Below, piece by piece: positions 846-58,409 of a DNA stretch of 64,000 bases. Below the pieces are notes generated by a model. It was not told where the DNA came from. It did no database searches and worked only from the letters and a program-made list of their open reading frames with translations. Origin of the DNA: Prorocentrum cordatum (Eukaryota; Sar; Dinophyceae; Prorocentrales; Prorocentraceae); contig CAUYUJ010009446.1 of assembly GCA_963575745.1 (NCBI GenBank), positions 1,058,740 to 1,122,739 of the forward strand, given 5' to 3'. Numbering within the stretch: the first letter of the stretch is position 1; each line of letters begins with the position of its first letter. Both the position numbers and the translations under genes were made by a program.

Positions 846-1215
846 GCCCTCGCAAGTGGCGACAGTAAGGCAGACCGCAGCCACCCAAGGATGGCGAGGT
901 CTAATCTGAATCTGGGTATGGCCCCACTGCGCTGCGCCCCCCCCTCCAGGAATCCTCGAAAGTGGCGACGGTTTCGCAGATCGCAGCCCCCCAGGGACGG
1001 CCAGGTTTAATCTGAATCTGGGTATGGCGACATTGTGCTGCCCCCCCCCCCCTCCCCCAGCAGCCCTTGAAAGTGGCGGCAGATTCGCAGATCGCAGCCC
1101 TCCAGGGATGGCGATGGCGAATCTGCATTTTGGTATGGCAACACTGTGCTGGCCCCCCGGCAACCCTCAAAAGTGACGACAGTTTCGCAGATCGCAGCCC
1201 CCATGGATGGCAAGT
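846..1215. repeat. Tandem ~108 bp repeat, four units
   Basis: Four copies of a ~108 bp unit follow one another, each with a core like AGTGGCGACRGTTTCGCAGA, then GATCGCAGCC and CCAGGGATGG. They start near 846, 955, 1063 and 1165, separated by C-rich runs. No coding signal is seen. Confidence 0.75.
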
Positions 1216-1235
1216 GCGAGAGAGGTATGAGACAA

Positions 1236-1236
1236 G

Positions 1237-1268
<32 letters not shown>

Positions 1269-1306
1269 AAAGAGGAGGCGGGAAGGAAGGAAGCAAGGAA
1301 GGACGC
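1236..1306. repeat. (GA)n microsatellite with AG-rich tail
   Basis: A pure GA run of about 29 bases grades into GAAAGAAAGAGGAGG-type purine sequence. Confidence 0.85.
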
Positions 1307-1434
1307 AACCCCAGTGCTCCATTCAAAACGAGAACCCAACCACGAAGGGTTGGGAGTACAGGAATCATCACCAGAAGCTCCTGACGGCAGGGCTTGCTAG
1401 TCAGTGTTCTTGTTATCCAGCAAACATCACCGAT

Positions 1435-1523
<89 letters not shown>

Positions 1524-1566
1524 TATCATTATCATTATCATCATCATCATCATCATCATCATCATA
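1435..1566. repeat. (ATC)n microsatellite, left flank of the PLE-like element
   Basis: About 130 bases of ATC/CAT triplets with a few ATT interruptions. It stops exactly where the 140 bp direct repeat of the retroelement begins. The matching array at 6633-6746 is in the same orientation, so the element probably split one original array. Confidence 0.9.
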
Positions 1567-1702
1567 TTCCGTGCAGCGAGCTGGCTCGGACTGGTGTGAG
1601 TGCACAGGGCGCTCGAGCTGCTCGCTCCAGTGGCCCTCTTGCGAGCCAGCAGAGCCTCATTCCGATGGCGCTCTGAAAGAACATCGCAACCAGTGATCAT
1701 CG
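1560..1702 (+). repeat. Pseudo-LTR-like direct repeat, left copy
   Basis: This ~140 bp block begins at CATATTCCGTGCAGCGA and ends at CAACCAGTGATCATC. It recurs at 6493-6632 with a three-base indel and about four substitutions (roughly 95% identity by eye). On the left it abuts (ATC)n; on the right it runs into unique element sequence. Confidence 0.85.
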
Positions 1703-2009
1703 ATTTCCGCCAGGTGACCGGCTGCTGTCTCTGCCACGGCCTTGGTGTGGTCCCAGTTCGTGTTGCAGGTGGTGCGCTACCTGTTCCTCTCCCTGCCCAT
1801 CTTCCGGTTCGTGAAATGCCGCTCCTGGTCCCGTGGCCGGAGCCGGAGGGATTGAAGCGGAGTGACGTTATGTTGGGCGAGTATAAGGTGTTGTTCATGG
1901 ATCCGTCCATGGAATCCCTTGGGAAGATCTCCGAATGGTTGGGTAAAGCTGCCGAGCGCGGGCGTCTTGATGTACTTGCTGTCGCGTCACATCTTGCAGT
2001 CACAAAGCT

Positions 2010-2774
2010 TTGTCCTGCCAGAGGGAGCTATGGGAGGCTGTCTTCGGGGCCTCACATGTGCCTGTGTGCTCTCACCCTCACGGCAATGGCAGCAGCGCGA
2101 CTTCGACGTGCTCGCGAGGCCCCCAAAGTACCCAAGTGGCCTCTCGTGTGTTTCAGGCCATGCCGAGCCAGGCGATTGCAGATCTGAGGGACGAGTTCCC
2201 GGGATGGTGGAGGAGCGTAGTTTCAGCAATTCTCGTGCCACATGAAGAGCAATCAGCTGTGTATGCATTGTTCTGCCATGCAGGCATGTATCTAGGCAAG
2301 TGCAATCTTCTGCGATTCGGGGCCGTTCCTAATGGGATAGCTTCGAGGTGTGCGGAGCACATCCACGCTTTGCTTATGCCGTCTTCCCGCGACGGTGGGC
2401 TTCACCGGTATAAGATCCTCCGCGCCTCCCTCGGGTCAGTCTCCTTCCTCCCCGTCGTCGTCTGTCCATCCGAGCGGCAAGCTCTAACACTGGAAGCCTG
2501 CCTGACCGCGGGATTGCGGCCCGCAGCCAATGGGGCAGACATTGCCCAATTAAGAGCCCCGCGTCAATCTCGAATACCTTTAAAACCCGATAGACCCGCC
2601 CAGCGCTCCCGTCTGTTTCCTAGGTTCCGCCATCGTGACCCCATCGCATCTGTTTGGTCTCATCCTCCTTTTCAAGATTCTTTTAAGCGAGAGCAGGATC
2701 CACCAGCCCAAAAAAACAAGCCCCTTAGTGAATCCAGGGGCCCGTACGCTGGACTCTATCGTTTCATCCAGTAA
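2010..2774 (+). pseudogene. GIY-YIG endonuclease domain of the PLE-like element
   Basis: A 254-residue open frame carries a GIY-YIG nuclease fold at residues ~84-180. VYALF (84-88) stands for GIY and MYLGK (93-97) for YIG. They are followed by the catalytic Arg region SRCAEH (R113), the metal-binding Glu in LEACL (E162) and the terminal Asn in PAANG (N174). Such domains nick target DNA to prime reverse transcription in EN+ Penelope-like elements. No CCHH zinc-finger is visible before it. The true start is unknown: reading probably begins upstream in another frame (a 195-residue ORF at 1600-2187 overlaps), so this is part of a broken polyprotein. The last ~70 residues are basic and Pro-rich, like a linker. 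A homing or repair nuclease is the alternative, but the RT downstream favours a retroelement. Confidence 0.7.
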
Positions 2775-2822
2775 TCTCTCTGTGCCCACTCTGGGGAGCA
2801 AGGCCCACGGTATATTTTCGAC

Positions 2823-3596
2823 ATGCGTTTTCGTTCCCTCTTCGCCTCCTACTGTGCCAGTTCTAATGCGAAACTCGATTTCCCAAACACTTGGAGTCGA
2901 GGTTACGTTGCCAGCATCTTGTATTTTGTAGCAGACGTGCTCCCCCAGGCCATTCGGGGGGCAGCTCCTCTGAGCAATGCCCGCAAGTTCGTAGAGCAGG
3001 TTTTGAAGAGGTGCGAACTGCCTCCATTAGTGATCCGTCCGTTGTGCATCCCGGTATGCCTTGCAAGTCAATTTGGTCTTATTCGCAAGTTGGTTCGCGA
3101 AGCGTTGCAATCGGTGCGGGTGTACGCTGCCAGGAAAATCTTGCAACGCCATGTGTCGATTTTGCCCGGCAAGTCTCGCCTGTGGTCCCACAGAGTGCAG
3201 GGCAAGAAGCAATTGCAGGCTCTCGACCTGGAATCCCTATTGCTGTTGGATCTCCGGGAGTTGGGCGCTGCAGCTGCCCTGCCTTCTCTCCAAGCGCATC
3301 CTGGCCCATGGCGTCTGCCTGTATGGCCCCAGGTGCAGCGCGTGAGGAAAGACTTTGCTCGTGCGTGGGCCCAGTGGTCGTCCTCCCACCGGCTTCACCC
3401 CAGGGTGCGACGGTCGCTCATCCCGCACTTGCAGGGTCGCATTGTTGATCGCGCGGTTCCGCCTTGCCCGAATCATGGCAAGAACAGGAGCAAGATTCCG
3501 AATTTATTCTCGCATCGCCCCATTCATTTATTCCTGACGATCGGAGTCCGCAAAAAGTACGGTCATGCGCCACAAATGAGTTGGCCGCACATTTAA
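2823..3596 (+). pseudogene. Linker between endonuclease and RT, PLE-like element
   Basis: A 257-residue open frame joins the endonuclease part to the RT part. It has basic, helix-prone sequence and no domain I can name. In another frame (3061-3345) the same DNA reads as a Cys-rich stretch containing RCNRCGC (near 3103-3123) and later CRFC. Elements with an N-terminal endonuclease are reported to have a CxC motif between endonuclease and RT, so that Cys-rich reading may be the genuine one, but the choice of frame cannot be settled by eye. The region is broken by frameshifts. Confidence 0.4.
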
Positions 3597-4915
3597 TCCA
3601 TGCCATGCAGAAGGATCCGATGTGGACTGTCGATCCCGAGTTCCAGCGACGTGATGTTCTAGCCTGGGGTTTTGCCAGGGCCTTCCTCGCCTTGCCATCG
3701 TGGTTGAGGGGCCAAGTCACACCCGCAGGACGGAACACATTACTTCCTGAAGTGTTTGCATTCGCGAAAGACAAAGTGCTTCCTGGATTCAGGCGAAAGG
3801 GTCTGCTCCAAACCCGACCATAGTTGTCTTCGGAGGTTGGTGGACGCCAGCTGTGCACCGTTTGCCAGAGGCTGGAAAGCTGTAGCTCGAGCAGTGCGGG
3901 CCATCGTTGAGGTGGTCGGCGCCACGCGTGAAGTTTGTAGCATGGACTGTGCAGCTGAGAGCCTGCGCGCTGGTATGGCCGGTCTTCAAGGCTCCGCAAC
4001 TGGCGTTTGTACATGTTGTGGGAAGCCCATCAGGGGCATCTCCGTTTTTAGCGCTGACGTTGATCAAGCGTTTGAAGCGTGTGAATCAGCCCAGGTACTC
4101 CCAGCTTGGCAGCGTATTGCGGAAAAATATCAATCTCAGACAGCATGCACGTCTGCATATATCTAGAAGGCTCGCAAGTTTAGTTTCCGGGTTCCGAGTG
4201 AGCATCGATGGACTCGAGGATGGTGGATTTTTCACGTGGGGTTGCTCGCCACGTGTCTGCATGTTGCCGCGGTATTGAGTCTCGTGTGCCTCTCGTCGCT
4301 AGTGATTCGGCAGCACGGCATGGCTATCGGAGGAGTTCTCAGCTCAGCAGCCGTCTCCGTAATTCTCGGGGACGAAGAGGCTGAGGTTCTTAAGGGCGCT
4401 CGGCAAATCCCAGGGTTCTGTCTCCCTCAGGGGCCGTCGCTGTTGCAGCGGATTTTCTGGGTGCGTTACGTGGATGACCTGCTTGCGCTCTCTTTTCAAT
4501 ATTGTAGCACTTGTCTAGGAGTGTTTTCGGGCAGGTGTATCGGGACAAACTGAGCGTCGTGCATCAGAGTGACGGTGCTCAAGGGCACCAGGTGTGCGAA
4601 TGGCTTGATTTTGAATTGCATTTCTGGGAATCCAGTTTCTCATGGTTGCCGAAGAACTTGAACAGGGGGTGACTTTTCCGTAATGAGCCTCCGCTCCGTT
4701 CGACCATCATGCCATGGATGGGTAGCTCTCCCATTCGTTTCTCTCGAATTCGAACTGCGCCGTTTGGAAGAATAGCCCGAGGTAGGAAGATGGATTTGTC
4801 CCTGGCTCTGATGGCCATCGTAGTGCTAGAATGTTTATTAGAGCTCCTCAAGCTCGTATGCCCCCTCTCTTTCGTGCGTGCCCTCGTCCACTCCCCCCCT
4901 CCCATCCCTGCTGTC
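3464..4915 (+). pseudogene. Reverse transcriptase domain of the PLE-like element (frameshifted)
   Basis: RT motifs appear in order across four overlapping frames. A fingers-like FIPDDRSPQK lies near 3527. ADVDQAFEAC near 4056 carries the motif A Asp. GMAIGGVLSS (4317-4346) looks like motif B, and RYVDDLLALS (4464-4493) is motif C with the catalytic Asp pair. A thumb-like FGRIARGRK segment then a Leu-rich helix follow at 4760-4890. Frames change near 3800, between 4166 and 4236, and between 4553 and 4709, so no single product can be made. The motif spacing is long, consistent with an insertion in the fingers as in telomerase-related RTs, but that is inference. A LINE or group II-type RT is less likely, because a GIY-YIG domain lies upstream. 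Confidence 0.68.
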
Positions 4916-4984
4916 GTGCTGGCCCGAAGGAGCATCCGATCCCTCCGCCACTCAGCCAGAACCAGCGCTCGCATTCTCCAGCCC

Positions 4985-5718
4985 ATGTCGCAGTGGAATT
5001 CTCGTTGCACAGGTGGTGACGGGTACTCGCGTGGCCGCAGAGAGTACCCCAGCGGCCAGGACGAGCAGTGGAAGAGTGCAGAAGAACGGCTGGCTGTGTT
5101 GGAGAAGGCCTCTGAAAAATCCAAGAAGTCTTCGAGGAAGAAGTCGAAGAAGCACAAAACAAAATCATCATCTTCATCTGGTGGCTCAACGGACTCTAAC
5201 GAGAAGATTCGCCAGGCCGAAGAGTTCCTGGCAAAGAAGAGCAAGCGTTTCAGGAACTATATCAAATATTCTGCGCAAAAAGAGCGCGATGCCGAGTATG
5301 CGAGACAGGGTGAGTTGATAGCTCGGGCCATCGGCCCCCAGATCAGTGAAGCAGCACAGGCCGCAGCGATCCAGATCGCGCCGACGGCTCCCCCCGGCCC
5401 CTCCGGAGCAGCGGCCGCCGGCCCTACCGCGGTTCCGGGCGCCCTTCCACCGGCTTCGACACCACCGGAGGGCCCTCAGCAGTTGACCCCCACGCACGAG
5501 GCCTTGCTTGAGGCGGTCCTTGCGGAAGTATCGAGATCAAGGATGGCTCGATCCAGGGCGTCACCAAGGCAATCTCCGAAGGTTGGTCGTCGAATCCGCA
5601 GTTTGCCAAGTCGGTCGAGGCAGCCACTAAAAAGTTTGCGGGGAAAGACGTGGCGGTCCCGAGGCCTAAAACCGAGAGGATCCAGTTGCTGTTCGACGCG
5701 ATCCGCAAGCTGCCCTGA
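4985..5718 (+). pseudogene. Second ORF of the PLE-like element, basic coiled-coil protein (one frameshift)
   Basis: The frame opens at an ATG at 4985. After ~25 residues comes a charged stretch: EERLAVLEKASEKSKK, then a Lys/Ser run, then a helical segment with KKSKRFRNYIKYSAQKERD, then an Ala/Pro-rich linker. Near 5530 the sense reading jumps by -1 to a frame giving IKDGSIQGVTKAISEGW and ending FDAIRKLP at a TGA at 5716-5718. The change from ordered protein to Arg/Ser noise in the original frame supports one indel. The function is unknown; nucleic-acid binding is a guess from composition. Because PLEs sit in head-to-tail tandems, this may be the first ORF of the unit rather than a trailing one. 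Confidence 0.5.
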
Positions 5719-6492
5719 GCTACCCGTAGCATCTTCCTGATAATCTTCTGGCCTCTTCAAGTTCCGGCGCTCGTGCTCCTAATGTGTCTGTGCATCTCGT
5801 TATATTCAGGATTCGCTCTGGCATGGTACCAGAACGAGGCGTTGAAATACCAGAGCGAGGCGCTCAAATGGCAGGTAGGCGGACAGGTCTTCACCAGCGT
5901 TGTAGATCTTGCCCGTGCTTACTTATTCCCCTTCTCTTTCGCCTCCCAGCTCCCTTCTCCCTAGCTCGCATCTCCGCCGCAGCAGCTGCCAGCCATCACC
6001 GGTCTTGGCCGAAATATGCCAAGCCCCGGGGTCGGTCCTCTTGCCGATGGGATTGCTCGAGCGCTCGGGCACTAGAGGTACAAGAGATGGGGGGAATTCG
6101 TTACGTCAGACAAATATGTTTGCGCCCTCTGTTTACGATATATATCTCTTGTACCTCCCCGTGCGAGATGGGCGCCAGCAGCGTATGAAGCCAGATATAT
6201 TGAGATGTGTCTGGCGGAGCCTCCTGCTGGTCCGACGCCCGCGGACTGAACAATGGGTGCCCTTCACCTTGAGCATCGCGGACACTTGAATATTTAAGTG
6301 GAGACAGGGAGGAAAACGGACGCTTAAGGACACGAGACGAAGGAGCCAACGACCATGACGATGACGATCGTGCGTGCTGACGCGGAGCCGGGGTGTGCCA
6401 GGAGGGGAGACTCACGGAGTCCCGGCACGTGTCTCCTCGTCAGTGTGCGCGCGCAGGTTTGCCCTCTCTCAGGGGCGAATCCCAGGAGGGTT
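5719..6492. other. 3' region of the PLE-like element, no clear gene
   Basis: A short open frame at 5773-5964 includes WYQNEALKYQSEALKWQVGG, a small internal duplication, but no domain. The rest up to the right direct repeat shows no coding signal. TATATATCTCTTGTACC near 6139 may be structural only. Confidence 0.4.
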
Positions 6493-6632
6493 CATCATAT
6501 TCCGTGCAGCGATTTGGCTCGGACTGGTGTGAGTGCACAGGGCGCTCAAGCTCGCTCCAGTGGCCCTCTTGCGAGCCAGCAGAGCCTCATTCCGATGGCG
6601 CTCTGAAAGAACATCGCAACCAGTGATCATCA
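6493..6632 (+). repeat. Pseudo-LTR-like direct repeat, right copy
   Basis: Second copy of the 140 bp block at 1560-1702. It begins in unique sequence and ends directly in an (ATC)n array, the mirror of the left side. Direct repeats of this kind arise in PLEs from partial tandem copies. Confidence 0.85.
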
Positions 6633-6746
6633 TCATCATCAGCATCACCATCATCACCATCATCATCATCAGCAGCATCACCATCATCATCAGCAGCATC
6701 ACCATCATCATCAGTATCATCCTCCTCATCATCATCATCATCATCG
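6633..6746. repeat. (ATC)n microsatellite, right flank of the PLE-like element
   Basis: ATC triplets with periodic AGC/ACC variants, in the same orientation as 1435-1566. Confidence 0.9.
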
Positions 6747-6792
6747 TGAGCAGGGCGCTTCTCTGCGCACTGGCGCACCCCTTCTTTCTTCC

Positions 6793-7885
6793 CTGCTTCT
6801 GCCGCGATGGTTGTGCCAGCCCGCATGTTGTTCCTTCAGGGGCTCCTGGATCAGGGCGTGAAGCTGGTCGTCGCATCGGCTGCTCATCCTCGTTTGCGGC
6901 ACCAGGTGATTGCTGCGCACTGCTACCCCAACGTGATCATCCTTGTGTAGCACTAGGCCTTCAGCAGGGCGACGCTGCAGTGGCTCCTCTCGGCGATTGC
7001 AACTTGCCACATCGCTGACCGATGGCATCGACATAGCGATGGACATTCTGAGGTTATAACATTGTAAAGCCTTCTCGTGATGATGGTGGGACCCCTACTA
7101 CTGATGGCAATCATCCTGGAGGCGGCCCTGACGCCCCTGACCGAGAAGATGACGATGGGGGTGGGCATGGTCCGCGCCAGCGCCGTGATCGGCTGCAGGG
7201 TGGGGACCTTGAGTTTGGCACGGAAGCCGAAGGGCGCACATCTCTGTCTTCGATCTTGGTTCTGATTGTAAAAAGCCACGTCGGAACGATGTGGCTGGTG
7301 GAGGTCGCGCAGCTTCGTGCAAGTGTACCGTTTGTATTTCAACCGATCTCTCCTTTCCTTAGTGAGCTGAAGCACCAGACAGTGCCAGGGGTTGCACAAG
7401 GCGTTTCGGCTGTTTCGCGCCGAACGTACCCTGCTGGCGAGACTTCTGGATTTTATGCCAACTGCATCAGTGGAAAATGGGAAAGTGTTGCCCAAGGCTC
7501 GGTGGAGCGCGCTGCACGAGAGATTCCCTCGTTTGTGCGTTGGTACCCCGGGTGTGCCCAAGGACGGTATCCGTATCTCTGTCCGTTTTTTTGTCCAGCA
7601 CGTTTGGTTTGGATGGCCCTTTGAACGTTCGACGCGTTGGCCCTAGAAACAAGAGTGACCAAGCAGAGATTTCTGGCTCCCGCTGCGCGGACAAACAATC
7701 TGGATTTGGATGGTTGTCAATTCTGCAATTGTTCCTGCATGGTACTCTGATTCGCCCGTCAAAGATGTACTTTCAAGCGCTGGCCGAGAAAGTCCCATCG
7801 ACAACGATTTTCAGGAGCTGTTAGAGGACGAGAAAAGACATAATGAACATATCGTTCGGGAGTGCGGGTTGTTTACGGTCTTGTG
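6793..7885 (+). pseudogene. Unidentified broken coding region between two (ATC)n arrays
   Basis: Several stretches read as ordered protein but in different frames. An ATG at 6808 opens a short frame with LLDQGVKLVVASAAHPRLRH, closed by a TAG near 6949. From ~7079 a Gly/Asp-rich stretch leads into RDRLQGGDLEFGTEAEGR. From 7392 a frame containing LFRAERTLLARLLDF runs to a TAG at 7644-7646. The same frame resumes near 7690 with IWIWMVVNSAIVPAWYSDS and ends GLFTVL at a TGA at 7883-7885. I do not recognise the family. The stops could mark introns or decay. It may be a further part of the PLE-like unit or a separate element. Confidence 0.4.
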
Positions 7886-30523: not shown

Positions 30524-31277
30524 GCAGGTGGTTGCCTCTCAGCTGCAGGCACACTCAGCGAACATCACCGCGCAGGTTCAGAATGCTGTGGCCACCACGA
30601 TGCAGCACGTCCAGGGCACGATCATCTCGCAGCTCCAGGCCCATTTCGCCCCGACGATGCGGCGGGTGGAGGGACATGACCTGGCCATTGGTGACATGCA
30701 GAGGAAGCAGTTTTCCATGGAGGACGCCCAGAAAGAGATGCGCGCAGGTATCAGTCGAACCAATAACCGCCTGTCATTATCGGAGGAAGAACATTCAGCG
30801 GTGGACATCGCTCGTCTCGCGGATTTCGATAGAGATCCCTACCCAACGATCTTCACGATCAACGCTCCAGATGATGTTGCCCCAGATGAAGTACGTGGAG
30901 CAATCGCTTCTTGGATCACCGACGCCAAGCTTGATGCGGAAGACGCAGTGTTGCACGGTCGTGGCCCCAGCAGACGGTTTGTCTTGGAAGTCAAAGGAGG
31001 CGCGACAGGTATCTCGAAGGCCATCATCTTGGCCAAGGCGCTCCGCTTCCCCTCGGGTGAATGGAGGAGGTTCTCGGCTCGGCAGCTTTCTGGGGCTACT
31101 GGTCCTCTGTATGTTGGTCCCGACAAAGCCCCTAAGCAGATTAGACGTGAGCAGCAGTCTAAGCGATTGGCCGCTATCGCCCAGGAGAAGATGCCCAACA
31201 AGCGTTGGTGGGCTACCAGAGCGAGAGGCTTGGTGCACATTGAGGGCCAGCCGCTGGTCGAGGTGGTGGTTAGTTAG
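30524..31277 (+). CDS. LINE ORF1 protein, 5'-truncated
   Basis: An open frame runs through the left boundary and gives ~250 element-derived residues, ending at a TAG. The first part (QLQAHSANITAQVQNAVATT and QLQAHFAPTMRRVE) is an amphipathic, coiled-coil-like stretch with a repeated QLQAH. The second part (YPTIFTINAPDDVAPDEVRG … LEVKGGATGISKAIILAKAL … GPLYVGPDKAPKQIRREQQS … RGLVHIEGQPLVEV) has the strand/helix rhythm of a small RNA-binding domain. ORF1 proteins of LINEs bind the element RNA with such a coiled-coil plus RNA-binding layout. The Leu-rich lead from 30222 is translated (CTC)n and not part of the element. The exact fold is inferred. Confidence 0.6.
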
Positions 31278-31441
31278 AGGCGCCAACGAGCCTTCTAGAC
31301 TGGCATGCAATCAAGCGGTGGTCGCCCAGCACCAAGTGGATGTGGCGGGCATCACGGCCGCCTTCGACCGCGCCTTCGAGACGGTGGACACCAGCTCCTG
31401 GTCGTGGTCCTGACCAATGGGCTCACCCGTGGCGGATCGAG

Positions 31442-32285
31442 GCTCTTGAGAAGGGATCTCGCCAAGAGGTCAGGGTCGTCTCATGGAATGCCAGAGGTCT
31501 GTGCGGACTCGGATCAGAGGGGCGCCGGAGAACTCTATGCCGCGCGAAGCTCAGGAGGCTCGAACCCTTTCTTCGCATGAGAGCGGTCATCCTACTTCAA
31601 GAAGTACACGGATCTGAATATGATTTGAGCTTTCTGTTGAGGCAGTTTCCATATGAATACCGAATTTTTTTCAGTGCAGCTTCGTCACCTGGGAAAGGAG
31701 GCGTTGCGATTTTGATTCCATGGTACAAGGAGACTGATCTCTCCAAGCTGCCGCCGAATGTTATTCCGTCCTTCAGGCCTCGATGTGTGGTTCCTGGACG
31801 CATTCTTTCTCTTCAAGTTCGAGGCGCTGGTCAATCGGTCCACATTTTGAATGTTCATAACTTTGATTTGGACGCTCATGCGCGCCAAGCGGTGAGAGCC
31901 TTGTGGCGGCGTGCGGCTGTGTGGGCCCAACAAGATGAACGGCGTCGTTGCTTTATGGTGATGGGCGACTTCAATGTGGCGGATGTTGCTCCAGACTCCC
32001 TCCTGAGGCCTGCGGCTCGGCGTGATGTGGAGGTTCTTGGACAACAGCACTAACCATTCTGGCGTGCGCTGTTTGACCATCGGATGGTGGAGGTGGCCTC
32101 GAGCTTGCCGACCCACTTCTGCAAGCATACCCAGACTTGTTCGACCATGGATCGGGCCTTTGTCTCTTTAACGCCGCCCTTCATACTCGAGACTGAGGTC
32201 ACGCTTTCGGTTCAACAGGAAGCAACACGTCTGTCCGACTGGTACCTCAGCGATCATGCTCTGTTACTTCTTCAACTTCGGCCAG
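31442..32285 (+). pseudogene. LINE ORF2, APE-type endonuclease domain (in-frame stop)
   Basis: Reading in frame from 31340, the domain starts at EVRVVSWNARGL, which holds the Asn of APE-type nucleases. It continues with VILLQEVHGS (catalytic Glu), GKGGVAILIPW, and CFMVMGDFNVAD (Asp-x-Asn), and reaches YLSDHALLLLQL (terminal Asp-His) near 32252. These are the expected motifs in the expected order for the nuclease that nicks target DNA to start reverse transcription. A TAA at 32051-32053 interrupts the frame between GDFN and SDH; the same frame continues beyond it. Near 32283, in a GGCCAGGGGG run, the sense reading moves to another frame. No better start than the post-ORF1 spacing can be proposed. 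Confidence 0.8.
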
Positions 32286-33937
32286 GGGGAAGAAACCACC
32301 CAGAGAGCGCTCGATTCCTGATTATGTCTTTCGTGTCCCTGAGTACAAAGTGGAGCTGAACGAATACCTGGCACACGCTGACTGGACTGGCTGCTCGGTG
32401 GAGGAGCGTTGGACTGTCGCCAAAGATGTCATGATCAGAGCAGCGGCGCGAGTGCGCAACATGCTCCAACAGCTGCCTCTGGACGCCTCGCGTGATGGGG
32501 TGGAGGACTCGAGGAGGATCACACTTCGTAGTATTGCTCGGGCCATCTGGCGGCAGGATGCTCGTCTAGCGTCGCTGCTTCGGCATAACACCGAGCACGG
32601 CCAGAGGTTCTTGTATGTGGACAATGGGGTTGTCTCTCTCTTGAATGCCTCTGAGTTTGCTGAGACGGTCATTCGGGCGAACTCTGAGTGGCATGAACGG
32701 CTCCAACGACACGCGGAAGCTCAAGCGCTTCGTGGTGATCGGCAACGTCGTGAGCCTGCCGAGTTGTCTCGGGAACAGTGGCGCAAGATACAGAGGACAT
32801 CAGCAAGGAGAGCCCGTCTATGGTGTGACTCGCGCCGCCAGCTTATCCTGAACGGCATCAGGCACAACTCGGCTGGACATTCTACGATGCCTCCTGCAGT
32901 TGCGGACATTCGCTGTACTCCTCCTGTGGGCCTCCAGGAGCAGGGGACACGATTCTTCCCTCAGCAGACATCGGGAGATCGGCCCCCGACGCGGATGGGT
33001 TCCTTGTCTTCTCACATCGTGACGTCTGCGCCTTGCACATATGATGCATCCCTTCAAGCCGCTGTGTCGGACTCACTTGGTGGTCGGACTGCTGTCACCA
33101 GCAGGAGCGACCTTAATGGCGGCCACCCCGCGCCTCGTGAGTCCACGGTCTCAGCGGCCGCTGTTGGGATGCGCGGGGGGGGGGGGGGGGGGGGGGGGTC
33201 TTCAAGCCGCTGTATCGGACTCGCTTGGTGGTCGGACCACGCCTTCGGGCAGGGGCGACCTTAATGTCAGGCCCTCCCCTGGGACCGCGCCTCGCGAGCC
33301 TACGGTTTCAGCGACCGCTGTTGCCTCCTCTGGCCGCTCTTCTTGTACTACGTCGTCGTTATCGATCTCTTCTTCCTCGTCTTCGTTGGCGAGTGGTTTC
33401 TTGACGGACTCTGATGCGTGTGAGGAGATGCATGCCCAACCTGGGACGGGAATTCCTGCTGGGCATACAGATTCTGCTGATGGTACGACTGCTCGCGGTG
33501 CTGCGGACATGGCCTCGGCGCTTCAGCGACACTGGGGGGAGGTATTCAGGGCGAAAGAGTCTCCGTCTGGCGATGTTCTTCGCGGGTATCTTTGTGACCA
33601 TCTCCCTGCCTACCCTGCTCCTGAGCTCAAGCCGCCGTCGATTGATGACCTCAAGAGCGCCCTGCGCAAGGGCAAGCCCAGTGCACCTGGCCCAGACAGG
33701 CTGCCCCATCGTGCGTGGCTCGCCCATGATGACGCGGTGGAGACTCTCTATCTGGTATTGCTTGGTATGTTCAGTGGAATTGGCTGTCCATCGGGCTTCA
33801 ATCATCACTTACTGTGCTTCATTCCGAAGGATGAGCGGCCAGAGGATCTTATCGATCTTGTTCGGGCTCCCGAGGAGCTACGGCCGCTTGCTCTGAAGAA
33901 CGCAGACTCCAAGGCCATCGCCAGCACCATTAATTAA
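32286..33937 (+). pseudogene. LINE ORF2, linker and N-terminal RT segment (frameshifted)
   Basis: After the frame change, a charged linker runs from PRERSIPDYVFRVPEYKVEL through LRSIARAIWRQDARLASLL and EQWRKIQRTSARRARLW. A second change, at or before the duplicated block and poly-G run (33050-33326), moves to the frame of 33041-33937. That frame holds LKSALRKGKPSAPGPDRLPH, the typical PGPDxxP entry to a LINE RT, and LCFIPKDERPEDLIDL, then LRPLALKNADSKAIAS. It ends at a TAA at 33935, where the next RT segment is in yet another frame. Confidence 0.7.
33050..33326. repeat. Internal duplication around a poly-G run in the LINE
   Basis: A ~120 bp block starting CTTCAAGCCGCTGTRTCGGA is present twice (33053 and 33202), separated by an uninterrupted run of about 27 G (33173-33199). 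The two copies differ by short indels. The duplication changes the ORF2 reading frame, so it is probably a defect of this copy. Confidence 0.75.
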
Positions 33938-33944
33938 TGTTCAG

Positions 33945-35858
33945 TTATGCGCGATTGCGGAACAGAGATGCCACCATGTCCAGCGTGGATTTGTCCGTGG
34001 AAGGCAATTTACCTCCCACATCGCGGAGCTTGACACGTATGCGCGCATGGCTGGTGGACATATGTATGCGAACATTATCAGGCCTGCCTTCATTTCATTT
34101 GATGTGCGCGCGGCCTTTCCTTCGATGAGTTGGGTATGGGCCCAGACGGTATTGGGATATCATAAGATTGCTATGGGCTTTCTCATGGCCATTCGGGCGC
34201 TGTATCATGATATGCAAAGCTGGACCTGGCGTGGTGACTCCTTACAATTTCTCTTTCACGTATCGGCGGGCGTGGCCCAAGGTTGCCCGCTCTCTGGGTC
34301 TTTATGGACGCTGACGTTTGATCCCTTCCTACATCACCTGTGCAATGGCAACGTGGAGGGCTACGGAAGTGTTATGGCAGCAGATGGTTTCGAAGTTGGC
34401 AATACTGACTACTCGATGGTGACTGGCCCTGGCGAGATGGCGCCCCTGATTGCTGGAGCATGTGCGGATGATGTTGGAGTGGTACTACCTGTACTGAAGG
34501 AGGTGACCCGCGTTGCGCCTGTCTTTGCAGCGGCACAGGAGCTGGCGCACCTGCGCCTGCAGAGCAAGAAATGTTTCGTGGTGCCGCTCTGGACTTGCGT
34601 TTCTCCTGAGGTGCAGGACCTTGTCGGGTCCCACCTTCGGTCTTTTGCACCGGCCTTTTCGGCCTTTCCCATCAAGGGGCGGGCCAAATACCTGGGGGTG
34701 CAATTTGGTCCCGAGGCCACGCTCGACATGCAGTGGGAAGCGGCCAGCACGAAGCTCGCGTACCGAGTGCGCCTTGCTGCCTCGACACGAGCGCCCGCGG
34801 AAGCCTCCGCTCGGCAGTGCAACTCCTGTTCCCTTCCTGTCCTGTCGTACCTCGTTCAGTTCTTTCCCCTCCCTTCCTTCCTCCTCCGAAGAGAGCAATG
34901 GCTGCTGCACAAACTTTTGCGGCTTCCCCCGAACACTTTTAAGCGAGATGAGATCCTAAGCCTTCAACAGTGGTTCCCTGGATCGGCGCCTGCGGCGATG
35001 GCGGTCCTCGGTCGTTCGGCTGTGTGGCGGTTCGGGCTTCACACGTGGACGAAGGCCAAGGATTTCACACGACTCCTGGGAGAGTGGCACATGTGGCACG
35101 GCACATGTGTGCGTCATGCCCGAGGGGACTGGTCCCCAATGTGCTGGGCCCAAGATCGGTCGATTGCCCAATTCATCCTGTTTGTTCTTGATGTTTCCCC
35201 CTCCGACGTCTTCTCTCGCACTGCCCTCCGAGAGGCGGAGCGGAGGATGCTGGAAGAAAGGCGCACCGCCTTGGAGGAGGGAAGGCGACCTAGGACCCAG
35301 CGTATTCTTTCCCGCTCCCTCTCCTCGTCCCTCTTTCCTGACCGTCTCCACCTCCTCTTCCTCCGCCGCCTCCGTGCCTGGTTTCCGACGCTGGAGCTCC
35401 CCTCCTCGCGAGACATGGAGGCGAGGTGGGCGCTCCTGAGGCTGATTCTCACACGTTCCCAGCCTTCATGGGCCTGGGCTCATTTGAAAAGTCTCGCGGG
35501 GGGATGGGTCACTACAGCCAGGATGCCCGTCCTCGTGCGCAGGAGCTGTCGCCTTGGATGTGAAGGATATGTGGACTCCCTTCCTCACTACCTCTGCTGT
35601 CCTCGGCTCCTCCACCTCCTGGCTCGTCATAGACCTCGTGCTTTTCTCCCCCCCTGCCCCATGGTTCGTATTGGGCTTGGGGATGAGGGGCGACCTGATC
35701 GGCTCTTCTCGAGAGCGGACGCCCACAGTCTGGCGGTCCTGGCCTTCCACTTTTACCACAAACTAAAGGCAGAGCAGGATGCAGCTCCTGGATCTGCTCG
35801 CGACCTCGAGTCTCATCTGAAGATTCTAAGAGGCGCCAGAATTGCAACGGGCGCCTGA
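33945..35858 (+). pseudogene. LINE ORF2, RT core and C-terminal zinc knuckle (open frame)
   Basis: From ~33945 the frame reads AIAEQRCHHVQRGFVRGRQF, the usual lead to the RT palm, although the first ATG is at 34047. FISFDVRAAFPSM is motif A, GVAQGCPLSGSLW is motif B, and CADDVGVVL is motif C (ADD in place of the more common YADD/FADD). KYLGVQFGPE follows as the motif D/E region. Towards the C terminus CRLGCEGYVDSLPHYLCCP has the CX3CX7HX4C spacing of LINE zinc knuckles. The frame is open for over 600 residues to the TGA at 35856-35858, so this end of the element is well preserved. It cannot make a full ORF2 protein because the upstream parts are in other frames. Confidence 0.82.
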
Positions 35859-49279: not shown

Positions 49280-49462
49280 GCTCCCTGCCTTCTGGCTCTC
49301 TCTCTGCCGCAGGACATACAGTTACGGCATCGACGACACCTACGAGATTATCATCCCCTGGTGTAGTCTGATATTTGGGTTATTTCAGTATATCAAGATA
49401 TACATTACCAGACACAGAGTTGGATCAAACACGGTTTATTTATCTGAAGTTCGGTTGAAAAT

Positions 49463-52159
49463 ATGTTGGCCTCTCCACAGACTACTCCACTCTCCCTCAA
49501 GCAGTATTCTAAGGACATACCGCCGGGCTGGCGGCCAAGGGCATATCCAATTCGTGAGTATCGAGAAGCGCTGGAGATATGGAGTCGACTCACGAGGTTG
49601 GAACAGGACCAGCTCGGCGCAGCGGTCATGAGCAGGCTAGAAGGCCCGGCACTGCGGGCAGCTCAAGATCTACGCGTGACACGACTGGATCAGGCAGGCA
49701 ACGTTGTGAATTACCGTGGCATCGAGGCGGTCAGCTTACCAAGAGTTGCAGCCATATTGGACGGTCAAGGCAACGAACTCGCCCCACTACAGCACAGTGG
49801 AATCAAGATTCTGAATGACAGATTGTTTGAGATGTATGGACTGGACGATCAAGATTTGGCCTGGACATCACTGGACATATTCTTTACGCTACGTCAGGGA
49901 TCCAGTCAGGACTTCATCTCGTATCTCTTCGAGTGGGATCACTTGTACGAAGAAGCTGAACGATATGGAGGATTACAAATGGGCGAGTCAGCAAAGGCGT
50001 GGCTTTTCTGGTCACGGACGACATTCGCTGATAAGACTCTCGCGGATCTACGCTTAAAAGTCAATGGAGATCTCAACAGATGGCGCGAGATGGTTCAATT
50101 GCAGTTGAAGGTAAGCAAGAACGAGATGGCAGCTAACGAACAGCACGTTGGATATAAGAACTACTGGGAAGATTCAGACTCCTGGACAAGAGAGTATGAA
50201 TACGACTACGACAACTACTACGAGGATGATGAGGAGTACTACGACGAGTGGTACGACGAAGAGTATGATGAAGATGATGATTGGTATGACGACAATGGAG
50301 ATCAAGATGGATACGGAGGCGCAGCAGCAGGTGGCACTTCATCATCTCTTCCATCCCCATCGACACCGGACGAGGACTACTGGCAGCATGTACGCGGAAA
50401 AGGATCATACGGCAAAGGAAAGGGCAAGGACGACAAAACCGGCAACGGCAAGAACGGCAAGAAAGGAGGTAAGAAACGACAAGGAGATCAGTGTACGCTA
50501 TGTGGATCAAGATGGCACAATTCAGAGACCTGCCCTCTCAAAGATGATCAGAAAGAGGACAACGCGTATCAGATTGACGAGCAGTATGATGAAGAATACT
50601 ACGGACAAGGAAAAGGTTATCGCAAAGGAAATCGCAAAGGTAAAAGACGTGGCAACGGCAAAGGATACGATCGAGATCGGCACCGAGGCTATCAAGACAA
50701 TCGAGGATCTCACGACCATCATCGACGCGATGTTCCACGTTTCGGCAGAAGCGACTTCCAACAGCGACAGCAGAAAGGCAAAGGACGTGGCAAGAAAGGA
50801 TACCGATCAAAAGGAAAAGGCTACGACCAACGACGACAGTTCTATCAAGACACTGATCGCGAAGACGACGCATATGGGAGCTACACGACCTTGCCGGCCA
50901 TCCATGAACAACAAGAACCAGACGAACAGGCAGCAGTACCAAATGAGACGTCCACGTACGACAAGAACATCATGACACGGACCCCTCTATCTTCAGGAGC
51001 GTGCCAGTTCGTACCTACCTCGACGGCGGCAGAGAGAACACCGACGCGGAAAGGATCAGCATGCGACGACATATTCGGCACCGGAGAGAGAACCACAGTT
51101 GGACAGGGACAACCACGGCATCCACCTGGGTTAGGCCCAGCAGCTACGGCGACTGGCGCGACGAGCTCAAGCTTTTCGGCATCATCAAGCGCAGTTTCGG
51201 TTTCTGCGTCTATTCATACCTGTTACAGATGTTTCTCAGCGGCGATTGCGAAGTGCGGCACGTGTAACCGTTCGTTTTGTATATGTCACGGATTCAAAGG
51301 ACACTTGATGGTGATGTGCTCTTCTTGTCTGGATATCTCAGCCGCCCGGCAGCAACAACAGCATCAATCACAGCAAGACGCACAGTCACCAGGGACCACT
51401 TCTCAGCAGCAGACCACACCGAGCTCTGATGACACGTCATCAAGTTGGATGTTGATACCTAGACCGGACGAATCGCAGATTCAGGACGAACCAGAGGAGT
51501 TTGCAGCGTTGCCAGCTTCTGGCAACCCGTTCAAGAACTTGGCGGTCATCAACGGAGTCAACGTCATCGGCCTCATCGTAGACCCTGGAGCAGCTCGCGG
51601 TCTTATCGGAAGTGCTACTCTTCGAGAGATCTTCGACAAGCTACTACGACCTCGCGGCCTGATGAAACACGTGATGTGGCATCGTTCAAAGAACAAGTTC
51701 ACGGGCATCTCATCACAGCCCCAGCACAGCATCGGTATATGTGTATTTCCTATTGGTCTGGTTGGAATGAAGCATGCTTACTTTTCTTGCGATGTCATCA
51801 CAGGCCAGTCAGCAAACTGTCCTGGACTCATTCCACTACAGACTCTGTTACGACTCGGCAGCATCATATCGTGCGGACACTTCCAGAATCAAGACGGACT
51901 TCTGGGACTGAGACTCGGCAATGGCGAGATGTGCTCACAGAGGATTCTCTTGACGGACTCATCGCACTACTTACTTCCGATCGACAACTTCGACAAAGAA
52001 AAGAACGACGTGTGGAACAAAACTGTACTTCAGCATCAGCAGGAAGTGGACGACGGAGCACATCAGCAAGGACAGCATCATCACGGAGTCACTCTCATAT
52101 CCATGATCGACGGCAACGACCGAGCACCACATGAGGACCACGGGGCTCATTTTCATTGA
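49463..52159 (+). CDS. Copia Gag–protease polyprotein
   Basis: 898 residues from the first ATG after a 200-base leader. The capsid-like N-terminal half (1-225) is helical and contains SLDIFFTLRQGSSQDFISYL. Residues ~233-285 are extremely Asp/Glu/Tyr-rich, and ~312-340 Gly/Lys-rich. A CX2CX4HX4C zinc knuckle (C344, C347, H352, C357) binds RNA. A second Cys/His cluster at 587-622 (CX2CX7CX2CX4CXCH … CX2C) looks like a treble-clef or B-box-type zinc module, unusual in Gag. The protease has DPGAARGLIG with the catalytic Asp at 707 in place of the common D(S/T)GA. The frame ends at TGA 52157-52159. The integrase frame is open from 52135, so the two overlap by 25 bases in the -1 direction. Confidence 0.88.
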   Translation: MLASPQTTPLSLKQYSKDIPPGWRPRAYPIREYREALEIWSRLTRLEQDQLGAAVMSRLEGPALRAAQDLRVTRLDQAGNVVNYRGIEAVSLPRVAAILDGQGNELAPLQHSGIKILNDRLFEMYGLDDQDLAWTSLDIFFTLRQGSSQDFISYLFEWDHLYEEAERYGGLQMGESAKAWLFWSRTTFADKTLADLRLKVNGDLNRWREMVQLQLKVSKNEMAANEQHVGYKNYWEDSDSWTREYEYDYDNYYEDDEEYYDEWYDEEYDEDDDWYDDNGDQDGYGGAAAGGTSSSLPSPSTPDEDYWQHVRGKGSYGKGKGKDDKTGNGKNGKKGGKKRQGDQCTLCGSRWHNSETCPLKDDQKEDNAYQIDEQYDEEYYGQGKGYRKGNRKGKRRGNGKGYDRDRHRGYQDNRGSHDHHRRDVPRFGRSDFQQRQQKGKGRGKKGYRSKGKGYDQRRQFYQDTDREDDAYGSYTTLPAIHEQQEPDEQAAVPNETSTYDKNIMTRTPLSSGACQFVPTSTAAERTPTRKGSACDDIFGTGERTTVGQGQPRHPPGLGPAATATGATSSSFSASSSAVSVSASIHTCYRCFSAAIAKCGTCNRSFCICHGFKGHLMVMCSSCLDISAARQQQQHQSQQDAQSPGTTSQQQTTPSSDDTSSSWMLIPRPDESQIQDEPEEFAALPASGNPFKNLAVINGVNVIGLIVDPGAARGLIGSATLREIFDKLLRPRGLMKHVMWHRSKNKFTGISSQPQHSIGICVFPIGLVGMKHAYFSCDVITGQSANCPGLIPLQTLLRLGSIISCGHFQNQDGLLGLRLGNGEMCSQRILLTDSSHYLLPIDNFDKEKNDVWNKTVLQHQQEVDDGAHQQGQHHHGVTLISMIDGNDRAPHEDHGAHFH

Positions 52160-55100
52160 GTCCTGGGCACGACGCTAAACTGTTCACTCCAGATACTCTT
52201 ACCTCATTCTCATCTACAACACGGATATACTATCGAGATTGGCAAGCTCTTTCTTCAAAGGAATCTTTCTCACTGTGGAATGGCGAACCACTCTTTCCTT
52301 CACACCTACTTCCAGAGGAGCTGGCAGTTGCAAGGACCGAATTCAATTCGATCCCAGAGATGTTCTACGCGACCTACACCTGGCTACCGGTCATCACGCC
52401 CGAGAACTACGACGCTTTCGAGGCAGCACTGGCCAAAGGACCTTATTGCGGATATCCGATTCTATGGAGTTGGTGTTCAGGTTCATCCCATCTATCTCTC
52501 TGTATGGCATCATTACCTTTCTTGTGTGCAGTACTTTTTCCAGTTGACCTACGCTACGGATGGGACCTCAAACATCGACCTCATCAACTCAAGTTACAGA
52601 GAGCAGACAAGACATTCAAACCAAGAGTCACAACGATGGAGCCAAGATGCAAGTATTGGAGTCACATGGGCACTGGACGCGACATCAAGGACACCATGGA
52701 GTTACGAGAATCAGAAATGCCCATGTTGAAGTTCATGACCTCACACGCTGTCAAGATCAAGCAGGACTTCAGAGACAATCTTGTGGAGAATCCAAGATCT
52801 TCTAGTATTTGGACGAAGTCTCCCTTGGCAGCCCTCCTTGATCATCCAGCTTATTCGGATCGACGTTACAATACTTGTATGTGTGCTTTCTCCAGTGAAA
52901 AGGACGGCCGAAGGAACAAGAAGGACACTACGTTGATTTCGACCTTCTGTCTCAATCATTCTGTGAAGCGCTGCAGCTGCAAGAAGGAGCACATACATCT
53001 TCAAGGTTATGATAAGGAGACGCATCGCAAGCGGACAGCAGCAGCAGCAATGTTTTCAAAGAAGTTCTGTACGGCACTCTGCAAGGACATCTTGGCCCTG
53101 GAGTCCAAAGAACCAGGAATCTCTATCAACAAGTTCTCAAGAGCTTTCCCGGCAGCAGCAGATGACGAGGCAGAAGATGAAGCACCATTAGCTCAGTTAC
53201 CAGCACCAGCAGGACCTAAGTCCTTAGACGACCTCATGGAAGAATTCAAGGACATCGACACCAAGAGCATCAAGATCACGCTCGACACCTTCACGCCCAC
53301 GGAAGCACAATGGATCAAGGCAGCGATTCTCTCCATCACCGATTACACTATGAGTTTCGGCGTTCCTGGGACACCTACCGGACGGATTTTGATGTTGCCT
53401 GGTACTGGCAGACCACAACAGGAAGGTGCACGAGTTCTATGTCATGCTCTCAGTCAAGTTTACATGACCAGGACTGTGACATCTCAATGCCATATGTCGG
53501 AAGCACACAAGTTTGACGAGACTGAGTTTAGCAATCCTGATGACTACAAAGATCGCATCAGATTTCTTGGCAACAAGGACGGCCACTACCACATGAGCGT
53601 GGTCAAGGATTGGAGAAGCGTACCTGAAGACGACATAGACACCACGACGACGATCTACATCATTACTCTCCTCGGCGTTCACCTTTCGGACATTATACTC
53701 GACGGTCCTCCTGGCCGACGAGATCAAGCTCGACGACTCAGAGGAAAGCAACCACGACCTACACACGGACCATATGCTATTCCACCAGAGAGGCCTGGAC
53801 CACTTGCGGCTTCTACTGACGACGCCATCGAGAAGATCGAGATCAACGGCCGTGTCTTGTCACGGACGAAGCCCAACATGGAACTTCGGGAGCTACCCAA
53901 GAAGTTGACTCATGCCAACGAGAAGGATCGTGCCGGACTACTGCGTCTACTTCATGAACGCTTCTGGCACAATTCTCCATTGGACATGATGAAGTTGCTG
54001 CAAGCCATGCTATTACCTCAGGCTATCGTTCTACAGGGCATGGAGATTTGTAAGGTTTGTGAAGTTTGTCAGCAATGGGCTAAACGACACATACGACCTC
54101 AGATTAAATCGTTTCTGGCTACAGTGTTCAACGAGATGGTACAGCACGATTTGTTCTTCCTCTGGGATGAAACGTTCATGATTCTCATTGATGAAGCTAC
54201 TAAGTGGAAGACTGGAGACCACCTCATCAACAAGACAGGGCCAGTATTGGTGAAGGCGCTCAACTACCTTTGGATACGCATTTGGGGCGCAATGCAGAAC
54301 CTTCTCACTGATCAGGAAGGAGGTCTCATGGGACACGAGGCCACCAAGCTATGTGATCGACTTGAAATCAACAGACTGGCTATTGGCAAAGGAGGAGCTA
54401 CCACCAAAGGACTTGTCGAAAGGCATCTAGCTCTTCTTAAGCTTTCTATGCTCAAGCTCAAGCAGTCAAGTCAAGCAGAAGGATTGGATCTCAGTTACTC
54501 CGACATCTGCTACGAGTGTTGCGCCGGCCACAACTGTACTCTCAACTATGGCGGCAGCACTCCACAGTTGGCCTTGACTGGACAGCTACCGAGGATGATT
54601 GCGATCGACAGCGAGACCATCACGTCCATGACGGGCGCCCTCGAGAAGCGTCCTGACTACATGGAGTCTATGTCACGCGCAAGACTACTGGCTCGACAGG
54701 CTATCGTACAGTCAGTTATTCAAGATCGATTAGCTCAGGCATCCAAGATAACTCAGCACCAGCACGAGCCGGAGCTACTCGTTCCGGGAACGATATGTGA
54801 TATTTGGCGAGAACCAGCACGGAAAGACGAATGCGGATGGCGAGGACCAGCGGAAGTCATCAGCCTGGAGCGACGCGCAGGATCGGCAATAGTCAAGCAC
54901 CAGGGCCAGCCGCTTATCATTCCTCTACGACATCTTCGGCGACACGTTCTCACCGAGCACTACATCACGGAGCTCAACAAGAAAAATGATATGAGCAGCT
55001 TCTACATACACTACGACTTGGTCAACCCTACGATGGTCAAGGCAGCGGCTACCTTTCTGGCACCATATCAGATATATGCCGATGGAGTTTTGGTTCCTTC

Positions 55101-55389
55101 GGAAACGCTGTACGACCTGATGGATTTAGTTGATGGATCTACGCCCACTAAGATATATTGGTTTGGCTTGGTATGGCAGCAAGAGCAGTATCGATATGTT
55201 CCCAGTGAAGAAGCTTGCGATTCATGCAAGCCTTTGGCCCTGGGCATCAAGATATTCAGCGATACGTTTAAGCCTGTGCATGGCATCTTGTACGGCTCAC
55301 AAGTACGTCGACTTCCTCAGATTGAATATGCACAGTGGGCTCTACTGCTACGCTGGCGACGAGAGGACCGAGCTGACTACAGTATATAG
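52135..55389 (+). CDS. Copia integrase (second frame)
   Basis: The frame is open from 52135. It has no early ATG; the first plausible non-ATG start is TTG at 52156, so access by -1 frameshifting from Gag-protease is more likely. Numbering from 52156, the first ~590 residues have no domain I can name. The HHCC zinc finger follows (H600, H605, C632, C635). The catalytic core has D665 (VQHDLFF), D719 (LLTDQEGG) and E755 (GLVERHL), giving the D,D-35-E spacing of retroviral-type integrases. A C-terminal region from ~880 is basic and contains a GTICDIWR … GWRGPAEV stretch like an integrase C-terminal beta domain. The frame ends at TAG 55387-55389. It overlaps the next frame by 13 bases. Confidence 0.85.
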   Translation, partial: GPRGSFSLSPGHDAKLFTPDTLTSFSSTTRIYYRDWQALSSKESFSLWNGEPLFPSHLLPEELAVARTEFNSIPEMFYATYTWLPVITPENYDAFEAALAKGPYCGYPILWSWCSGSSHLSLCMASLPFLCAVLFPVDLRYGWDLKHRPHQLKLQRADKTFKPRVTTMEPRCKYWSHMGTGRDIKDTMELRESEMPMLKFMTSHAVKIKQDFRDNLVENPRSSSIWTKSPLAALLDHPAYSDRRYNTCMCAFSSEKDGRRNKKDTTLISTFCLNHSVKRCSCKKEHIHLQGYDKETHRKRTAAAAMFSKKFCTALCKDILALESKEPGISINKFSRAFPAAADDEAEDEAPLAQLPAPAGPKSLDDLMEEFKDIDTKSIKITLDTFTPTEAQWIKAAILSITDYTMSFGVPGTPTGRILMLPGTGRPQQEGARVLCHALSQVYMTRTVTSQCHMSEAHKFDETEFSNPDDYKDRIRFLGNKDGHYHMSVVKDWRSVPEDDIDTTTTIYIITLLGVHLSDIILDGPPGRRDQARRLRGKQPRPTHGPYAIPPERPGPLAASTDDAIEKIEINGRVLSRTKPNMELRELPKKLTHANEKDRAGLLRLLHERFWHNSPLDMMKLLQAMLLPQAIVLQGMEICKVCEVCQQWAKRHIRPQIKSFLATVFNEMVQHDLFFLWDETFMILIDEATKWKTGDHLINKTGPVLVKALNYLWIRIWGAMQNLLTDQEGGLMGHEATKLCDRLEINRLAIGKGGATTKGLVERHLALLKLSMLKLKQSSQAEGLDLSYSDICYECCAGHNCTLNYGGSTPQLALTGQLPRMIAIDSETITSMTGALEKRPDYMESMSRARLLARQAIVQSVIQDRLAQASKITQHQHEPELLVPGTICDIWREPARKDECGWRGPAEVISLERRAGSAIVKHQGQPLIIPLRHLRRHVLTEHYITELNKKNDMSSFYIHYDLVNPTMVKAAATFLAPYQIYADGVLVPSETLYDLMDLVDGSTPTKIYWFGLVWQQEQYRYVPSEEACDSCKPLALGIKIFSDTFKPVHGILYGSQVRRLPQIEYAQWALLLRWRREDRADYSI

Positions 55390-58300: not shown

Positions 58301-58409
58301 GTCACTCTTGGAGCTGATCACCACCGGTTGTTGGACGATCGCAGGCACACTGCGAGTCAGGCAAGGATTTGGACTAGACAGTACCAAGTCCGACACGACA
58401 AGAACTTAA
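55377..58409 (+). CDS. Copia reverse transcriptase – RNase H (third frame)
   Basis: Open from 55377, with the first ATG at 55431 (992 residues from there). Residues 1-290 are Pro-rich and disordered. The RT begins near 415 (CTWVRKWKVK). Motif A is LDISTAFLQG with D495, the fingers-palm region includes RAMYGFTDAPLMF, and the catalytic pair lies in VHVDDLQITG (D621, D622; HVDD instead of YVDD). RNase H of copia type has D775 (CITDASS), E843 (SHAETLAAARG), D899 (CMDLWELC) and the closing MVSDMLTK. It acts in the virus-like particle to copy the element RNA into cDNA. The TAA at 58407-58409 lies inside a partial copy of the LTR tail. Expression probably needs a second -1 frameshift, or internal initiation at 55431. 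Confidence 0.88.
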   Translation, partial: LQYIALRYTADQSTNYSTMMLYSYDHCEDLDKHFDPPELDWSDISMIDWPDDLSDIVIPDQQPPRDPPAPPARAPPVPPFRSNAIPPQEPGRPPDQPSHGQPSTAPATAGTPQLNVPGDQTIDSDDDMEEIPAHGHDHDLPPAPGPAPRRISREIPMGPPSLQPQHRDTQGSEDSLQTPATPDKLPYIPLDLDKSKTSTAEKQKAVDPPDAAQSPPQKRGRSSSPYPWPSPWQPESPPRPQTTSTGRYQPGASSSSTDLPAATPGMSSTQPAPADSTEPPILPIRKDEVPAGEQPSTSTDRTLEYSDDPDGDTRVLYQETIDHLDIPKIVNLCERLPDGTHKQSMEAIYDEMISNLSDDFDFVSPTLYSDSDRYLYFHYDLHESMVFRVDDSTANLADDEMRRFAKLVIAGDHKELKAFVTHDIFEPVLRDHLPDKANIVDCTWVRKWKVKHVEVKSRLCARGCFDRQTNFIEKHSSTATRLSQRLVLSLGCCEGILHVNDENDGDVDTESLDISTAFLQGLGYDNLREKARNLGYEYREDRTVYILPPENVWSHFRRMPEASSSWKVADKDRHRYALKCLRAMYGFTDAPLMFQLALLEFLKDKTGAKSSVFDDNYLYWGIDYKGNKVIVLVMTVHVDDLQITGSRFYRDWIHKKLESRFGKLKRQTMPYTHAGLQLERIVPTCIRIHQDQFTSCLSPCVIPKERVDVPDAPCTAAEHKTFRSLTCGALWACQTRLEELFNVVSLQTKLQSPTIKDLLAINAVIKRLKKNPEKFGIYYRKLKAPLRISCITDASSANKNSNFATEGVTIGLQEDRLHFPLCDRQDYLQDNLINRLSGKLHALVVTSTKSKRVSHSTSHAETLAAARGVPMAQIIGMRLTEPEINILCGPQKPLQLQERLDRGQLSLPVDAFIDCMDLWELCCGLRGTPQDKSQRLGILSLREERRTLRLRRLYHVRTKWMVSDMLTKFVGADSKSLLELITTGCWTIAGTLRVRQGFGLDSTKSDTTRT

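Follow-up and report, generated by a model that had tools for sequence, protein, structure and literature searches.

The 64,000-nt stretch of DNA analysed here (positions 1–64000, termed the window) contains a retroelement that lies between two terminal direct repeats in an (ATC)n microsatellite. Its broken open reading frame (ORF) encodes an endonuclease followed by a reverse transcriptase (RT). The element is very probably a Penelope-like retrotransposon with permuted domains, in which a GIY-YIG endonuclease comes first. All features of the element are on the forward (+) strand. Homologous proteins are given P numbers, and loci of the same genome L numbers.

The element in the window

The left terminal direct repeat, a pseudo-long terminal repeat (pseudo-LTR), is at positions 1559–1701 and has ATC units at both its ends. 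The right repeat is at positions 6492–6631 and the two are 95.8% identical. They adjoin the flanking (ATC)n microsatellites at positions 1435–1565 and 6626–6745, which agrees with the direct repeats of ~140 bp inside an (ATC)n array described in a first-pass annotation of the sequence.

A single ancestral ORF, broken in the window, is found at positions 1816–5715. It is collinear with P0001, P0004, P0005 and P0006, and with the open frame of L033. The first-pass annotation had located the unit correctly but drew it slightly short, as the ORF extends from near 1816 to 5715. There are three premature stops (positions 2772, 4164 and 4670) and about five frame changes (near 2139; ~3461–3491; ~3768–3781; ~4510–4532; near 5530). 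The window element is a decayed copy. One single-frame tblastn alignment of P0005 with window positions 2148–4526 (E-value = 1.1e-87) spans the frame-change stretch.

L033 is a close relative of the window element (85% identity over 723 protein columns) and has an open frame of 1377 codons with (ATC)n at both sides. Its terminal repeats are a 140-bp pair, 100% identical, with 93.6% identity to the repeat of the window over 125 columns. In both copies, ATC units are found on the inner and outer sides of the terminal repeats.

Homologues and order of domains

A search with the joined read-through of the RT part matched P0001 (58% identity, E-value = 6.7e-143), P0002 and P0003. A profile built from these matches and the window RT (A2) gave 12 proteins, P0001 and P0002 included. 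P0004, P0005, P0006 and P0011 display the endonuclease and then the RT in a single open frame; the family alignment of P0004 and P0005 ends before or within the thumb. P0013, from the dinoflagellate Prorocentrum cordatum (E-value = 9.3e-31, 29% identity), keeps just the end of the endonuclease. No relatives of the element were found in the viral_contigs or genome_contigs collections, and a DNA pattern for motif C of Penelope-like elements gave no match leading to relatives in viral_contigs.

The element's own genome (4,128,499,153 bases in 21,875 contigs) was searched with P0004. At least 53 match rows were obtained with 46 of 1795 candidates scored; two are within the window and several come from one copy. 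Twenty loci were fetched and examined. The endonuclease comes first and is in one ORF with the RT in 15 of these, and 11 show near-full endonuclease and RT profiles in one frame. This supports the order of endonuclease before RT that was proposed in the first-pass annotation. The RT-bearing ORF of L037, L045, L048 and L050 lacks the endonuclease, and L049, a locus containing 3782 N, has no RT ORF. The 15 loci with both domains do not represent 15 families, as there are near-duplicates among the loci: L036 and L051 are identical in the tree described below, L046 goes with L047, and L043–L045 are very close. L036 and L051 are on contigs C1707 and C20140 in opposite orientation, and this is probably assembly redundancy.

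The endonuclease domain

The predicted GIY-YIG endonuclease domain is at positions 2205–2549. When a profile made from the endonuclease of P0004, P0005, P0006 and P0011 is run against the 1566 stop-to-stop segments of the window, the ORF at 1971–2771 scores an E-value of 8.6e-38 and the next-best segment 0.081. The window and these four proteins invariably share two tyrosines, Y-x-G-K, R, EH, E and P-x-x-N; these are presumably the residues expected of a GIY-YIG active site. No invariant Cys is present in the endonuclease alignments (five rows), and a CCHH set is not conserved.

Comparison of predicted folds supports the assignment to GIY-YIG. In a comparison with the known GIY-YIG proteins of E. 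coli and phage T4, four of the seven rank within the first 8 by hmmsearch, or the first 10 by hhalign, among 138 ORFs; the remaining three are scattered in the ranking or unreported. Rank tests in which the unreported protein is placed last give p = 0.008 and 0.023, and direct alignment by hhalign of the family endonuclease profile with an E. coli/T4 GIY-YIG profile is weak. This comparison is only suggestive.

The reverse transcriptase domain

The telomerase-like RT encompasses positions 3530–4963, with motif A at ~4050–4085, motif B at 4317–4334, the RYVDD sequence at 4464–4478 and the thumb reaching ~4963. These RT motifs, and the GIY-YIG-like motifs upstream, are at the positions where the first-pass annotation had read them. 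The distance between motifs A and B, where permuted Penelope-like elements have an insertion-in-fingers domain, is 85–88 residues in 12 of 13 proteins; P0012 stops short of motif B.

When the RT of the P0006 model is compared with known structures, telomerases head the rankings of both structure programs used, ahead of R2 and group II. The predicted RT fold is nearest to that of telomerase, in a fold ranking, which is not a tree.

Several cysteine and histidine residues are conserved in the RT: a C-x8-C-x4-H-x-C at its start (11 of 11 fetched proteins), a C-x2-C before motif A (13 of 13 and 12 of 13) and a C-x2-C after motif C (12 of 12 and 11 of 11). The L030 locus of the same genome deviates at the His of the first motif. 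The eight conserved Cys/His residues of P0001–P0013 look like metal sites. No conserved CxC was seen between endonuclease and RT in the family alignments, and the C-x8-C-x4-H-x-C may or may not be a counterpart of the CxC linker of other permuted elements.

Microsatellite targets

Terminal direct repeats are present in L033, L034, L035, L036, L037, L039, L040, L042–L048, L050 and L051. None were found for L038, and L041 has a partial left copy only. They measure about 140 bp in the window lineage; other lineages have repeats of up to about 340 bp.

The purity of the microsatellite unit was measured in 13 copies whose terminal repeats had been picked by hand, over the 30 bases that adjoin each repeat on its outer side. 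Nine of the 13 have a purity of 0.8 or more for the same unit on both sides, compared with 71 of 24,847 random pairs at equal spacing (0.29%), a control that does not model the hand choice of repeat ends. The unit is (ATC) in the window, L033 and L050, (AC) in L039 and L040, (AGG) in L043, L044 and L046, and (ACT) in L048 alone. L035 (0.93 ATC, 0.77 AGC), L042, L045 and L047 failed this same-unit test. L047 has 710-bp terminal repeats that are 100% identical; neither of them is flanked by a pure microsatellite, in contrast to those of L046, to which L047 is closely related.

A quick tree of the copies, with Shimodaira–Hasegawa-like approximate likelihood ratio test (SH-aLRT) support only, shows the two AC copies as one clade. 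The AGG copies group with L045 and L047 in a clade of five rows, and the program flagged the join of these two as possibly reflecting long branches. The ATC copies are split over two clades, and ACT is represented by a single copy. Close relatives share the microsatellite unit in this small sample.

In the second ATC clade, a (CAT)n run precedes the left repeat in six of seven copies, and L041 is without the first bases of its repeat. ATC-rich DNA follows the right repeats, weakly in L035, L036 and L051. CATCAT precedes the right repeat on its inner side in all seven. The CATCAT and ATC units on the inner sides of the repeats suggest that the element's own ends carry the target units.

Comparison with known elements and alternative explanations

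Among retroelements, the Penelope-like kind is closest to telomerase. In permuted Penelope-like elements a short CxC linker domain lies between endonuclease and RT. The Naiad group of animals has the endonuclease first, pseudo-LTRs, a microsatellite bias and an endonuclease with a CCHH motif. The Chlamys group of green algae, spike mosses and slime moulds has the endonuclease before the RT in one ORF, pseudo-LTRs, a microsatellite bias and an endonuclease that lacks the CCHH motif. Permuted elements with an anatomy like that of the present element were reportedly described by Craig et al. in 2021.

The present family resembles Chlamys in its endonuclease-first single ORF, pseudo-LTRs, microsatellite bias and absence of conserved endonuclease Cys. 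It differs in its eight RT Cys/His residues and in a K/S-rich coiled-coil tail (described below), neither of which Chlamys is known to have, in the use of several microsatellite units in one genome and in a possibly alveolate host. With Naiad it shares the endonuclease-first order, pseudo-LTRs and microsatellite bias; unlike Naiad, it shows no conserved CCHH set and no conserved CxC linker. Telomerase reverse transcriptase is the best fold match of its RT, but the element carries its own endonuclease and is multicopy. As with canonical Penelope/Poseidon elements, there are a GIY-YIG domain, a telomerase-like RT and pseudo-LTRs. According to one report, canonical elements have the RT followed by the endonuclease, with a hammerhead ribozyme (PMC11167929). 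Here the endonuclease is first, and no hammerhead was among 20 Rfam matches in window positions 1000–7400 (to E-value 10).

The first-pass annotation had placed the copy in or near the Naiad/Chlamys group. The domain order, predicted folds, terminal repeats, microsatellite setting and Rfam result bear this out; what counts against it is that profile searches without a GIY-YIG match, an outcome it had named as refuting, were obtained with Pfam, NCBIfam and PHROGs. No GIY-YIG match above cut-off was found in Pfam, NCBIfam, PHROGs or a PDB sequence search; the best leads are RE_Eco29kI for P0011 (E-value = 0.0079, 16.5 bits, cut-off 30.8) and UvrC (E-value = 0.85), which ranks behind an unrelated chain at 0.35. 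The homologue RTs match no Pfam RT family, and profile searches by sequence found no RT in PDB. The GIY-YIG negatives in Pfam, NCBIfam and PHROGs are set aside because of the fold result and the family profile match. With the profile libraries nearly silent on the window, the case therefore rests on homologues and folds.

Among other explanations, a separate telomerase-like lineage, sister to Penelope-like elements or to telomerase and belonging to neither Naiad nor Chlamys, is unlikely but survives best. The eight conserved RT Cys/His residues and the K/S-rich tail, which to our knowledge are not described for Naiad or Chlamys, would fit such a lineage. The endonuclease-first order, repeats, microsatellite bias and absence of conserved endonuclease Cys fit Chlamys instead.

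It is quite improbable that the element is a long interspersed nuclear element (LINE) or group-II-like retroelement which captured a GIY-YIG domain independently of Penelope-like elements. The Pfam and PDB results are compatible with this, and the one RT signal of Pfam on the window ORFs is RVT_1 at positions 4167–4550 (E-value = 0.032). Because Pfam and PDB gave no RT matches, sequence by itself does not decide between the two. The rank of telomerases above R2 and group II argues against a LINE or group II origin, as do the terminal repeats and microsatellite insertion characteristic of permuted Penelope-like elements. A grouping of the RT with LINEs or group II introns, raised in the first-pass annotation, was not seen, although the ranking with telomerase is no RT tree.

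The microsatellite setting could be incidental in a very microsatellite-rich genome, and 8.1% of single random 30-mers of these loci (3128 of 38,648) reach equal purity, the repeat ends also being picked by hand; the excess of same-unit pairs over the control makes this very improbable. A chance position of a GIY-YIG gene beside an RT gene, which the stop codon at 2772 between the two in the window might suggest, is rejected as having a negligible probability because the domains share single open frames in P0004, P0005, P0006, P0011 and, near-full, in the 11 loci; nor were the two domains seen in unrelated elements, as the first-pass annotation had considered.

Proposed mechanism

For a permuted Penelope-like element, the following process can be proposed. 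The endonuclease would nick a microsatellite. The nicked strand would anneal to repeat units with which the element RNA ends, and there the RT would prime (target-primed reverse transcription). The terminal repeats may arise from a tandem or read-through template copy, and slippage inside the array could mask target-site duplications.

A more far-reaching possibility is put forward tentatively, with the odds somewhat against it: that these elements form a deep, possibly alveolate-borne telomerase-like clade, each lineage homed to one unit, (ATC)n, (AC)n, (AGG)n or (ACT)n, with a GIY-YIG domain that reads the target and with matching units on its RNA ends that serve for priming. If so, a single genome would hold several simple-repeat specificities that arose from one protein fold, and arrays may be seeded or lengthened by the elements, much as telomerase acts at chromosome ends.

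The pattern of lineage by microsatellite in one genome appears to be new, as does the possible alveolate host. Such a host is suggested by the size of the genome, since dinoflagellate genomes can be this large, and by P0013, a distant relative. Lineages in different simple repeats would provide a natural series for the target choice of the endonuclease and the telomerase-like RT. The family would also allow asking whether such elements partly drive microsatellite growth in giant protist genomes. The matches listed in the open-access literature include no dinoflagellate retroelement described as Penelope-like or as carrying GIY-YIG, and no endonuclease-first elements from alveolates. Chlamys elements are reported in Ectocarpus, extending Penelope-like elements into the Telonemia, Stramenopila, Alveolata and Rhizaria (TSAR) assemblage (PMC12477816); this is the only TSAR report among the matches listed. 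If the host is a dinoflagellate, the endonuclease-first group would be extended to alveolates.

Other regions of the element

An N-terminal extension before the endonuclease (positions 1816–2139) is common to P0004 and P0005, with scores of 84 and 70, respectively, as the best of three frames. None of 500 shuffles in the best frame reaches either score (top shuffles, 52 and 48). Between endonuclease and RT is a linker, predicted to be mostly helical (positions 2560–3450; P0004 103–551 aligns with 2139–3491, and helices are present in the P0006 model).

After the RT is a K/S-rich and then coiled-coil tail (positions 5012–5345). It matches the P0006 tail with an E-value of 7e-10, which is inflated by a 1.3-kb target stretch and by the low-complexity filter being off. 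The L033 tail is alike by eye, and the P0006 model has a long helix at 971–1040 in this region.

The end of the ORF (positions 5345–5715) reads ...VPRPKTERIQLLFDAIRKLP, followed by a stop. The L033 open frame ends at the same place with nearly identical residues (...VPRPKVERIQLLFDAIRKLP). The interval between the end of the ORF and the right repeat (5719–6491) is deduced to be a 3′ untranslated region, and L033 has a similar spacing. A hydrophobic frame is present at 5719–5964, directly after the ORF stop, and P0013 is likewise hydrophobic after its tail.

Other features of the window

The window gave neither a tRNA nor an Rfam match at gathering threshold. Microsatellites with a period of 1–3 and at least 8 copies occupy 1,425 of its bases.

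A LINE-like element is found at positions 31274–35855, with Exo_endo_phos at 31274–32050 (E-value = 5.9e-11) and RVT_1 at 33897–35855 (E-value = 3.8e-6, slightly under cut-off). Positions 49448–58406 display three long ORFs of 903, 1084 and 1010 aa. The third shows RVT_2 (E-value = 9.2e-7, 29.1 bits, cut-off 31.6), and this region is possibly a Copia-like LTR retrotransposon.

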